A stretch of DNA of 64,000 bases, from contig NZ_JAATOV010000002.1 of the NCBI RefSeq assembly GCF_011806425.1, positions 806,001 through 870,000 on the forward strand, in the 5' to 3' direction. Shown here one piece after another: positions 6,394 through 9,748 of this stretch. The position numbers and the translations under genes were made by a program. The notes beneath the pieces are model-generated. The model had not been told where the DNA came from. It was given only the letters and a program-made list of their open reading frames with translations, and did no database searches. Position 1 is the stretch's first letter; every line of letters starts with the position of its first letter. Origin of the DNA: Thalassospira lucentensis. GTDB lineage: Bacteria > Pseudomonadota > Alphaproteobacteria > Rhodospirillales > Thalassospiraceae.

Positions 6394-6687
6394 TTAGGCA
6401 GCTTTTGCTTCAACAGCTTTGGCAACCTGGCGTTTGATTTTCACCAAGTCAGCCGGAAGCTTTGCATTTGCAGTGCTGAGCAAAAACGCATCCAGACCAC
6501 CACGTTTTTCGATGGTGCGGACAGCATTGGTGGTCAGACGCAGACGCACCGAACGACCGAGCGACTCGCTAAGCAGCGAAGTCGGCTGCAGGTTCGGAAG
6601 AAAACGACGTTTGGTACGATTGTGGGCGTGGCTCACATTCATGCCGACCAAAACGCCTTTGCCGGATACCGGGCAGCGACGTGCCAT
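6394..6687 (-). CDS. rpmB: Large ribosomal subunit protein bL28
   Basis: This is the 97-residue bL28 protein of the 50S subunit. It starts MARRCPVSGKGVLVG and carries the basic NVSHAHNRTKRRFLPNLQ core expected of the family. The ATG at 6687 is preceded by AGGAGA at the right distance; the frame is open further upstream but that part is untranslated leader. It is a single-gene unit with its own sigma-70 promoter (6762-6790) and terminators. Confidence 0.97.
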   Translation of the reverse strand: MARRCPVSGKGVLVGMNVSHAHNRTKRRFLPNLQPTSLLSESLGRSVRLRLTTNAVRTIEKRGGLDAFLLSTANAKLPADLVKIKRQVAKAVEAKAA

Positions 6688-6761
6688 GACCTGATCTCCT
6701 GGTCTATAAATTCGCAAAAGGACGCTTGGCCTGAACACGCAGGCCCGCGCTTGGAGCCGGG

Positions 6762-6790
6762 TTATTACCGCCTCTGACCAATGTCGTCAA
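6762..6790 (-). promoter_or_regulatory. rpmB: Sigma-70 promoter of rpmB
   Basis: Read on the minus strand: -35 TTGACG (6785-6790), 17-bp spacer, -10 TAATAA (6762-6767), then a C/G-rich discriminator (CCCGGC). This fits a growth-rate-controlled ribosomal protein promoter; the leader would be about 70 bases. Confidence 0.65.
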
Positions 6791-7182
6791 GCCTTCATCA
6801 ACGCAATCAACCGACAAAACGCTGATCAGGGCTATTTTGACGCCAATTTACGGTATTCGTCGTATTTTTCCCAACTCAACCGCAAGAAGTCAGCCCCATT
6901 TCAAACCAGCGCGACAATACCAATCAGCCAATTTTGCCGCAAATAAATAGAAAATGCGCTGAGCTTCTGCCCGATTCTCAGCCTTAAGGGACTATATATA
7001 GACCCAACACATTATATATAGTGATATCCGAAGCCCCACTTCCAAACCCCATAGGTACTGGATTCTCATTCAAACGGCTTTCGGACGCTCGTTCGTCCCC
7101 TGCCCCATACTGCAATTCAAATCATGGGCCAGTGCACCTTACGCGGCGATCGGCTGCACTGCTTAATCGCGGGCTAATGTAA

Positions 7183-7196
7183 TTGATACGGATCAA
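7183..7196 (+). promoter_or_regulatory. FNR/FixK-type box (TTGAT-N4-ATCAA)
   Basis: The sequence TTGATACGGATCAA is a perfect match to the Crp/FNR-family consensus used by FNR, ANR and FixK. Its centre is at 7189.5. A weak -10-like TAGCTAT lies around 7220-7226, which would place the box near -41.5, the class II activation position. The first gene downstream is the small membrane protein at 7271. Confidence 0.6.
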
Positions 7197-7270
7197 AGTA
7201 AATGCGCGCAAATGCGTGGTAGCTATACCGTTATAGAGTTCAAAATTTTCCTTTGAGAGCAAGGTGCAAA

Positions 7271-7459
7271 ATGAAAACAGATAGTAAAGTGTCGCTGCCC
7301 CTTTTGGGCATTCTGCTGGTCGCAGTTGTCGGGCTGGTGCTGTATCTGGTGGGCTTTGTCCTTGCCCATCTTGGGGTGCCAATCGCATCAGCATGGATTT
7401 ACGTCGCACTGGCCCTAGTGCCGGTCGCATTCTTGGTGCTGATTGATTTTAGCCGCTAG
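7271..7459 (+). CDS. Small two-helix membrane protein, putatively oxygen-regulated
   Basis: A 62-residue protein made of a short charged N terminus (MKTDSKVS), two hydrophobic helices (about residues 9-32 and 38-58) separated by a small loop, and the tail DFSR. I do not recognise a family. The ATG at 7271 has AAGG seven bases upstream. It is monocistronic: a perfect FNR-type box lies about 75 bases upstream and a strong terminator (7493-7525) follows. This setting argues that the gene is real and induced when oxygen is low. A function in a respiratory complex or in membrane adaptation is possible but not shown. Confidence 0.7.
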   Translation: MKTDSKVSLPLLGILLVAVVGLVLYLVGFVLAHLGVPIASAWIYVALALVPVAFLVLIDFSR

Positions 7460-7492
7460 GTCTTCTTAACGACGCGGCAAAAAGATTAAATG

Positions 7493-7525
7493 CGGCCTGC
7501 CATGTTTTGGCGGGCCGTTTTTTTT
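7493..7525 (+). terminator. Rho-independent terminator of the small membrane protein gene
   Basis: A 10-bp stem CGGCCTGCCA/TGGCGGGCCG (one G-T pair) with a five-base loop is followed by eight T residues. Confidence 0.92.
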
Positions 7526-7551
7526 ATGCGCCGTCATGTGCCTTTAAACGT

Positions 7552-9615
7552 CTAGGCTGTGGAGGACGTCGCCTGCCAGTGCAGGTCCTTGCAAGGCCCC
7601 TTGGCCGGACGGGCAAAGAAATACCCCTGATAGGCATCAACCCCCATCGCGGCCAACTCAGAACGCTGTTGTTCGGTCTCGACCCCTTCGGCAATCACAT
7701 TCAGGCCAAAGCGGTGAGCAATCAAAATGGCCCCTTCGATCACGACCTTGGCATTTTCATCCATTTTCAAAACGAATGACTTGTCGATCTTGACCGCGTC
7801 CACGCGAATTTGATGGAGCCGCGACAAGGACGAATATCCCGTGCCGAAGTCATCAATATGCACTTCGATTCCCAACCCATGCAAAACCGACAAGACATCG
7901 GCAATCAGGGTGATCTGACGCTGATCAAAAATGGATTCTGTGACTTCAAGCGTCAGTCGGCTGGCGGGAAGACCGGTTTCACGCAGGACATCTTCGACCA
8001 CGCGCACAAAGTTTGGCACAACGATCTGACGGATAGAGACGTTAATCGCAACCTTGGTGGTCGGCGGCACATCCTGCCAAGCAACCAGCGTCGCACAGGC
8101 TTCGCGCAAAACCCATTCGCCAATGCCAACGATCTGTGCGGATTCCTCGGCGATGGGAATGAACTCGTCCGGGGGAACAAGCCCAAGTTCCGCACTTTGC
8201 CAGCGCAACAACACTTCGTAGGAAACAATAACCCCGTCAGCGGCCCGAACCACCGGCTGAAATTCAAGATAGAACTCACGCGACGGCATCGCACGACGAA
8301 GGGCTTGGTTGATGTTAAGGCGGCGTTCCTGCTCTATCAAAAGGGTTTCGTCGTAGTTATGCACGCTCCCGCGGCCATCGCGTTTGACCTCGGCTGCGGC
8401 CAGATCCGCCCAGTGGATCAATTCGGAAATATCTGGATTGTGGCGTGTTGAGAAGGCCACCCCGGTACTAAAACCAACATGCAAGGTATGACCCGAAACA
8501 TTCAGCGGACGATTAACCGCTTCGCGGGTCTTTTTGATCGTTGCCATTACGTCGGAATGAAGATCACCGGTGGATGCCGCCAACACCATCAGGAATTCAT
8601 CCCCGCCCCAACGCCCCACCGCCTGACGCGGACCATCAAATTGTTGTAACCGCGCGCCAACCAACCGAAGAACTTCATCACCAATGGCGTGACTAAGCCC
8701 GTCATTGATTTGTTTAAAGTGATCAAGATCGATGAACAGAACCGCATAATCCAAGTTTTCGCCACGCGAACAGACATCATTGAACCAGGCAATGATCCCA
8801 TCGCGGTTCAAAAGACCCGTCATGGTGTCATGGATTACCAGCTGACGAAGTTCTTCTGTGCGCTGGGCAACGCGCGCTTCAAGGGTTGCGTTCCAGTTCT
8901 CTGTAACGCGGTTTTTGTGCCGTAAATCCGCAAGCAATCCTTCGTTTCGGTGATGCAAAACCAAAGACCGAAACAAAATCGCATGGTTGTTACGATGCGT
9001 TGCCAACATCACGAACAGGAATACAACGCCAAGACCCGGAAGAATGTAATTATCCCCCGCCATCATCAGCAAAACAATCGGCGGGCCCAACAAGATTAAA
9101 AGATAGACCCGGCCGACAAAGAAAATCGGCGCAAAAATACCCGTCGCACCGCCAGCCAGCCCGGCATAGACAATCAAGGTCAAGGACTCGCTATCGCCGC
9201 TGACCACCGGGATTTTAAGGACAGCAAGCACCGCCCAAAGCATGACGGCAATGAAAACACCCGCAGCATAGCGATGACGCCAAATTCGGTATTCATCCGG
9301 ATCAAAATTTTCAACACTTCGACGTTTTCTGCGATACAGAAAACCGTCCCAAATGCGTACAGCACACACCACGCACACGCTGGCAAACCAGATCACGGTG
9401 CTAAGGACAAGCTCGTCACGCAGCCAAAACATCAGCAGCAATCCCGCCCCGGCGGACAGATTGACGAGGATATTCGCCCAGCTATTTCGGTATGCAAGAT
9501 CGAGGAGGTCGCGACGCACTTTGCCGGTCAGATTCTCATCTGCTTGCTGACCGATGTTTGGACCAATAAAGCGCCAGAAGTACTTTTTGACCAAACTGAT
9601 GGCTTCTTGATCCAT
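7552..9615 (-). CDS. Membrane-anchored GGDEF-EAL protein (cyclic di-GMP turnover)
   Basis: This 687-residue inner-membrane protein has five to six N-terminal hydrophobic helices (about residues 45-205), a short coiled linker, a GGDEF domain with an intact GGDEF motif at 337-341, and a C-terminal EAL domain. The EAL motif reads EVL (467-469), but the glutamate, the EVTES segment, DDFGTG, VKIDKSF and EGVET are all kept, so phosphodiesterase activity is plausible. No RxxD inhibitory site precedes GGDEF. It would make and/or break cyclic di-GMP in response to an unknown membrane signal. The ATG at 9615 is the first standard start; a TTG at 9654 would add 13 residues. It stands alone. Confidence 0.9.
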   Translation of the reverse strand: MDQEAISLVKKYFWRFIGPNIGQQADENLTGKVRRDLLDLAYRNSWANILVNLSAGAGLLLMFWLRDELVLSTVIWFASVCVVCAVRIWDGFLYRRKRRSVENFDPDEYRIWRHRYAAGVFIAVMLWAVLAVLKIPVVSGDSESLTLIVYAGLAGGATGIFAPIFFVGRVYLLILLGPPIVLLMMAGDNYILPGLGVVFLFVMLATHRNNHAILFRSLVLHHRNEGLLADLRHKNRVTENWNATLEARVAQRTEELRQLVIHDTMTGLLNRDGIIAWFNDVCSRGENLDYAVLFIDLDHFKQINDGLSHAIGDEVLRLVGARLQQFDGPRQAVGRWGGDEFLMVLAASTGDLHSDVMATIKKTREAVNRPLNVSGHTLHVGFSTGVAFSTRHNPDISELIHWADLAAAEVKRDGRGSVHNYDETLLIEQERRLNINQALRRAMPSREFYLEFQPVVRAADGVIVSYEVLLRWQSAELGLVPPDEFIPIAEESAQIVGIGEWVLREACATLVAWQDVPPTTKVAINVSIRQIVVPNFVRVVEDVLRETGLPASRLTLEVTESIFDQRQITLIADVLSVLHGLGIEVHIDDFGTGYSSLSRLHQIRVDAVKIDKSFVLKMDENAKVVIEGAILIAHRFGLNVIAEGVETEQQRSELAAMGVDAYQGYFFARPAKGPCKDLHWQATSSTA

Positions 9616-9748
9616 CCGTGCTTTTCGCCCCTGCCACGCAATAAGTATCAACAATACTATACATACGTACTAACTCAAGCCAGAACGAATATACGCTTAA
9701 TGCTGATACAAAAGGACTATAGGTCTTTTAACTTAGTTCAATGAAACA

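Follow-up and report, generated by a model that had tools for sequence, protein, structure and literature searches.

What does a perfect FNR-type box signify when the gene behind it encodes a membrane protein of only 62 residues? Proteins of this kind are often missed in annotation and lack family models. The locus that raises the question lies in a stretch of 64,000 nucleotides of Thalassospira lucentensis DNA, referred to here as the window, for which an earlier note had proposed an oxygen-regulated small protein. The box and its promoter, the protein, its relatives and the other boxes of the genome were analyzed in turn.

The box, promoter and gene in Thalassospira

The FNR/FnrL-type box TTGATACGGATCAA (plus strand, 7183-7196, centre 7189.5) is, as the earlier note had claimed, a perfect palindrome, and it is the sole exact occurrence of TTGATN4ATCAA in the 64,000 nt scanned. 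Sites with at most one mismatch to this pattern numbered 8 in the window versus 3.04 expected, and a count of 8 was reached in 1 of 100 shuffles. A candidate extended -10 element of the form TG-G-TAGCTA (TGGTAGCTA) follows on the same strand at 7217-7225 (TG at 7217-7218, TAGCTA at 7220-7225), and from its spacing a transcription start is predicted near 7232, with the centre of the box at about -42.5. A sigma-70 consensus scan of positions 6500-8200 returned no promoter (1.4 expected), which is consistent with a site that lacks a -35 element. An AT-rich repeated motif (ACTATATATAG and ATTATATATAGT) is located at 6991-7022, between rpmB and the box.

The gene was present in all 29 Thalassospira genomes searched, with identities of 79 to 100 percent (A1 was built from 20 of the 29 orthologues), and each of the 29 carries an exact TTGAY-N4-RTCAA upstream of it. 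The TGnTA motif starts 19 nt past the box in 27 genomes and 20 nt past it in the other two, one of them being the window; counted from the predicted -10, the box centre thus falls at -41.5 in 27 genomes and at -42.5 in two, which agrees with the position near -41.5 previously suggested. Relative to the position of the window's own start codon, the box lies 86 to 101 nt upstream, and in two orthologues the start codon lies two codons further upstream.

The DNA around the box is more variable than the box. In a box-anchored, ungapped comparison of the 29 genomes, the mean major-base share over the 60 nt upstream of the box was 0.42, while invariance beyond TTGA/TCAA, whose eight positions are fixed by the anchoring pattern itself, was seen at box position 7 and at the base flanking the box on either side, which is an A in all 29. 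Indels worsen the ungapped flank comparison, and a gapped MAFFT alignment gives the same contrast between box and flank. Distinct box regions were found in 28 of the 29 genomes. The box recurs in Thalassospira beyond chance, the rate of exact boxes being 0.0007 per 100 nt under a first-order Markov model of the compared region, and the 29 box-bearing genomes, being kin, do not represent 29 independent events. The TTGAY-N4-RTCAA sequence, together with its position near -41.5 of a -10 that has no separate -35 (relative to a predicted start), corresponds to class II architecture, and the gene is very probably under FNR/FnrL class II-type regulation.

The gene itself occupies 7271-7459 of the plus strand, including the stop codon, and is delineated by its translation, its codon-position pattern and two predicted helices. 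Differences among the 29 orthologues are distributed over codon positions 1, 2 and 3 as 3800, 1478 and 10711, and the median pN/pS between the window gene and the other Thalassospira orthologues is 0.185; on both counts, purifying selection acts on the plus frame. The same interval is overlapped by an antisense ORF of 102 codons. The protein was found at 13 named loci, 12 from Thalassospira and one from a Rhodospirillales MAG. An AlphaFold2 model, built from 13 sequences (the window protein plus 12 of the named loci; L044, of which only 46 residues matched, was omitted), places helices at residues 5-33 and 39-61, with a mean pLDDT of 78.6 and a pTM of 0.50, in keeping with the two-helix protein described before. 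In a 19-residue hydropathy plot the first helix has the higher peak, 2.99, against about 2.4 for the second. Given the lysines near the start and the arginine at the end, both termini are probably cytoplasmic, with a short loop outside.

A terminator-like hairpin follows on the plus strand at 7492-7525, comprising an 11-pair stem (7492-7518) and a T run to 7525. It is the best of three terminator-like sites found, versus 2.4 expected, so that the number of sites is in itself no evidence; the case for the strong terminator that the earlier note had seen rests on the strength of the stem and on its recurrence, as judged by eye in the genus alignment, where a similar hairpin and T run lie downstream of most Thalassospira orthologues.

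An unnamed protein family and its neighbours

The window protein yielded nothing above cut-off in Pfam or NCBIfam, and for 12 family members the best E-values were 0.01 in Pfam and 0.005 in NCBIfam. Searching PDB chain sequences with a profile (up to E 5), comparing the AlphaFold2 model with the PDB by Foldseek (up to E 10) and running one relative against plasmids with tblastn each gave no match. Among the matches listed from the open-licence literature, there was no study of the small protein or of FNR in Thalassospira.

Relatives emerged when profiles were run against 317 genomes of the order. One built solely from Thalassospira sequences detected ORFs some 60 codons long in further genera (best E 2.0e-5, in one genome); the widened profile matched 91 of the 317 genomes at E 0.01, and the final profile 113 of 317, in 30 of 115 genera, at E 0.001, an extra match in a 250-codon frame of G024 having been dropped. 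In a class-wide sample of 385 genomes four matches were obtained, two from Thalassospira, one from another member of the order and one, weak (E 1.3e-4, within a 238-codon frame), from a different order; the sample includes at least two genomes of the order to which Thalassospira belongs without a match. Against a profile without Thalassospira, made from 90 of the 93 copies outside the genus (three were left out for length), the window protein scored 31.2 bits, while 10,000 hydropathy-preserving shuffles scored at most 17.0; the resemblance is therefore more than mere hydrophobicity, within a check that is not fully independent, since the 93 copies had been gathered with profiles holding Thalassospira rows. 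Common to the family members are an LG close to the N-terminus, the pattern GLxxYL within helix 1 and, in helix 2, a stretch resembling GLALT.

On these searches the protein represents a family, new here, that lacks a Pfam or NCBIfam model and is found in one order, save for one weak match. The view that it has no recognised family is thus upheld for both databases and has to be amended by an unnamed family present in 113 of the 317 genomes.

Six genomes contain further copies of the family sequence in longer frames, namely L173 (G179), L174 (G174), L175 (G114), L176 (G135), L177 (G081) and L178 (G184), and one genome has a second stand-alone copy. The longer frames carry an extra hydrophobic stretch ahead of the hairpin, and in G174 and G179 two copies are neighbours.

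The genes adjoining the small gene were also compared. Its downstream neighbour in the window is a convergent GGDEF-EAL gene (7552-9654, minus strand), and upstream rpmB (L28), on the minus strand and pointing away, starts about 500 nt off. Within flanks of up to 1.5 kb, rpmB was found in 25 of the 29 Thalassospira genomes, while 22 of them have the GGDEF-EAL gene there. Clusters formed by BLAST from the adjoining ORFs at 47 loci, named from a Pfam check of their representatives only, included the GGDEF-EAL type (12 genomes), GlgB (11), a GlgE-domain protein (10), phasin (10) and DUF2794 (6). As a clue to function the neighbours were set aside, no single pathway being apparent among the 47 loci. 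The small gene is not part of the cco operon, ccoN being located 90 kb away in its own genome, and no respiratory operon adjoins it.

FNR-type boxes outside the genus and across the genome

Outside Thalassospira the picture differs. An exact box within 350 nt upstream was detected in 6 of the 93 copies (control pattern, 0), four of them in one genus and one each in two others; in 8 of the 93 the stretch read falls within a longer frame. A one-mismatch box occurs in four further copies (L061, L116, L204 and L212), and in L126 and L128 a TTGAT-N3-ATCAA sequence, with a spacer of 3 instead of 4, lies upstream of the family gene. The six exact boxes are situated 120-154 nt upstream of the family gene, their centres at -71.5 to -92.5 relative to a TGGACA-like promoter that was findable in five of the six. 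On its other side, each of the six boxes has the start of a divergent ORF (737-773 codons) 11-122 nt away, and the box may therefore serve the divergent gene. Upstream of many outside copies, a TGGACA-N17-TAnnnn sequence was noted by eye and left unscored.

A family-wide box is ruled out by these counts (6 of 93). The exact box is found in 29 of 29 Thalassospira genomes and only 6 of 93 copies elsewhere, where it also faces a divergent gene, and FNR control accordingly looks like a feature of Thalassospira and not of the family. The earlier expectation of a box upstream of the orthologues thus stands within the genus, at class II distance, and fails for the 87 of 93 outside copies without an exact box; oxygen control therefore appears lineage-specific rather than family-wide. 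The simplest history would be an ordinary promoter in most lineages, with an FNR site having replaced the -35 element in the Thalassospira lineage.

Five of the six divergent ORFs belong to the BLAST cluster of GlgB (checked with Pfam in L103), the sixth being L189. At L065, L129, L130, L132 and L135, the exact box stands between the family gene and the divergent GlgB-cluster gene, a hint that glycogen metabolism may respond to oxygen in these genera.

Four Crp-type regulator matches were detected in the window's own genome. One of them, L069 (C5:916530), carries an N-terminal CxxCx7C motif and an ETVSR helix, which we take to be the marks of an iron-sulphur FNR. Its best score was with the FnrL model (197.9 bits), followed by FixK (179.5) and Fnr (140.3), each below the respective model cut-off (300 for FnrL). 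A second match, L070, likewise has N-terminal cysteines and scored 54.9 bits with FnrL; by eye, it adjoins an apparent NarL-type response regulator. L069 lies about 11 kb from ccoN, and fnr is often located near cbb3 genes, according to the available portion of one report (PMC2908626). From homology and position, the FnrL-type L069 would be the activator, acting in class II mode.

The whole genome contains 21 exact TTGAYN4RTCAA sites versus 9 for the reversed control pattern. At the Markov rate of the region compared for the small gene, about 31 exact boxes would be expected in 4.5 Mb, more than the 21 observed, and a lone box therefore proves little. Under a rough gene model, 7 of the 20 other boxes are intergenic and 13 lie within ORFs. 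The intergenic ones are found upstream of petA, of an OmpW-like gene (its 150.6 bits fall short of the OmpW cut-off, 287), of ccoN (two boxes) and of a di-haem peroxidase gene, in the gap between hpf and htpG (the latter recognised by eye only), and at one site with no gene within 450 nt. Among those within ORFs, one falls right where the hemN frame begins, and another lies in a small and possibly spurious ORF next to a chemotaxis receptor. (The loci at petA, the OmpW-like gene, hpf/htpG, ccoN, the di-haem peroxidase and hemN are L142, L144, L147, L149, L154 and L159.) These exact boxes outline a predicted compact FNR set for Thalassospira; much of what is clear among them belongs to the classical FNR set, but many of the boxes may be due to chance.

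A further small ORF was encountered in one Thalassospira genome (L067, G022:C21, ORF 2488-2658). It encodes a 57-residue two-helix-like protein without a Pfam match, and a one-mismatch box, ATGATCCGGATCAA, is located at 2381, 107 nt upstream. This protein matched the window protein at E 0.008 but no family profile, and may be unrelated to the family.

Possible function and competing readings

The occurrence of oxidases was analyzed alongside that of the gene. At E 1e-60, ccoN was present in 110 of the 113 gene-bearing genomes and in 91 of the 204 others, a threshold laxer than the curated cut-off (201 genomes versus 187); the three gene-bearing genomes without a match are drafts (G250, G251 and G283). 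In a sample of 87 genomes, ccoN occurred in 18 of 18 gene-bearing genomes and 44 of 69 others, and subunit I of cytochrome bd in 8 of 18 and 13 of 69, respectively. Both sets of counts are confounded by lineage, as lineages and genome sizes differ, and a link of the family gene to cbb3 is possible within that limit. A strict partnership with cytochrome bd is unlikely, since 10 of the 18 gene-bearing genomes have no subunit I match.

The explanation proposed here is that of a stand-alone gene activated directly, in class II fashion, by an FnrL-type oxygen sensor. As oxygen falls, FnrL would retain its iron-sulphur cluster and bind TTGATACGGATCAA; at about -42, in place of a -35 element, it would recruit RNA polymerase to the extended -10. 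The resulting short RNA, whose leader would be about 39 nt long, would end at the hairpin at 7492-7525. Its product would be a two-membrane-helix hairpin, its termini probably cytoplasmic and its short loop outside, which as a non-catalytic accessory would help to assemble, stabilise or tune a low-oxygen respiratory complex, the cbb3 oxidase/bc1 branch being considered first. We infer topology, partner and function, the accessory or assembly role being suggested by the company that the promoter keeps and by the association with ccoN. The earlier suggestion of an accessory to an oxidase or sensor is compatible with the presence of ccoN in 110 of 113 genomes, a count confounded by lineage. As a whole, from FnrL activation to respiratory accessory, the proposal is tentative, and since 87 of 93 copies outside Thalassospira have no exact box, the protein may act in some role unrelated to low oxygen.

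The main rival reading holds that the protein is a general membrane component, used at all oxygen levels in most lineages and no respiratory accessory, whose Thalassospira promoter was captured by FNR owing to a greater demand for the protein when oxygen is scarce. The lack of an exact box in the stretch read for 87 outside copies, the TGGACA-N17-TAnnnn sequences seen by eye ahead of many of them and the diversity of neighbours (GGDEF-EAL, DUF2794, GlgB, GlgE-domain protein and phasin) all argue for such a component, whereas the retention of an FNR-type promoter in 29 of 29 Thalassospira genomes and the presence of ccoN in 110 of 113 gene-bearing genomes argue against it; we give this reading a substantial chance, somewhat short of even. 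The box might also be read mainly by another Crp/FNR-type regulator, L070 or L071, in response to a different signal such as nitric oxide. The genome has four Crp-type matches, and in alphaproteobacteria one target sequence is common to FNR, FixK and DNR, as stated in the accessible text of PMC2908626. The further boxes at ccoN, petA, hemN and the OmpW-like gene, and the FnrL score of L069 (197.9 bits versus 54.9 for L070), make this distinctly improbable.

Two other readings concern the product itself. Were the protein a CydX-like accessory subunit of cytochrome bd under FNR control, its small size and hydrophobicity would be accounted for, subunit I is encoded in its own genome, and subunit I is somewhat commoner with the gene (8 of 18 versus 13 of 69, five of the eight being Thalassospira). 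The idea is largely refuted for the family by the 10 gene-bearing genomes of 18 without subunit I, and two helices are predicted here as against one in CydX, so that it appears very unlikely. Least probable of all, hardly to be credited, is that the box drives a small RNA or the distant rpmB and that the short ORF is incidental. The unit is short, has its own hairpin and is overlapped by the antisense ORF, as such a reading would have it; against this stand the third-position excess in the plus frame, the pN/pS of 0.185, the homologous ORFs in 84 other genomes and the -10 directed into the ORF, with rpmB about 500 nt away on the opposite strand and not found in 4 of 29 Thalassospira flanks.

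Comparison with known systems bears on the proposed FnrL activation and respiratory role. CcoM and CydX, each with a single helix, resemble the present protein in being small and hydrophobic with a low-oxygen tie, which here comes by way of the promoter; unlike CydX, the family has two predicted helices, and its gene occurs also in genomes without cytochrome bd. CydX is a small hydrophobic protein that completes cytochrome bd, as the portion of PMC6005532 at hand describes. CcoM, a cbb3 subunit of Pseudomonas stutzeri, is likewise very small and tied to oxygen-limited growth in the part of the source available (PMC10433244), but has 36 residues as against 62 here, and was compared by description only. 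The FnrL regulon of Rhodobacter sphaeroides uses the same TTGAY-N4-RTCAA site, and its targets, as far as excerpts of the report give them, include ccoNOQP, ompW, ccpA and hemN, together with some hypothetical proteins given without sequence (PMC2908626); in the window's own genome, boxes are similarly found at ccoN, the OmpW-like gene, hemN and the di-haem peroxidase gene. MgFnr of the related Magnetospirillum gryphiswaldense is also an alphaproteobacterial Fnr, with the site TTGAN6TCAA, whose targets, in contrast, are denitrification operons, no small membrane protein being seen among them in the excerpted text (PMC4065386). In the same excerpts, deletion of fnr left transcription of terminal oxidase genes unchanged (PMC4065386), which counts against a respiratory reading of the small gene.

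On regulation the evidence is clean, in that the box has been kept in every genome of the genus though the surrounding DNA has changed, and its conservation singles out this gene as a candidate for tests of a low-oxygen role. The family also offers a comparison between a genus seemingly under FNR and many genera seemingly not. A bolder version of the proposal, which we regard as rather doubtful, is that this two-helix family of one alphaproteobacterial order is a dedicated partner of the cbb3/bc1 branch, with FNR class II control determining its dose in Thalassospira and a promoter of housekeeping type doing so in other lineages. If true, the family would supply a missing subunit or assembly factor, invisible to solved structures because these come from other orders.
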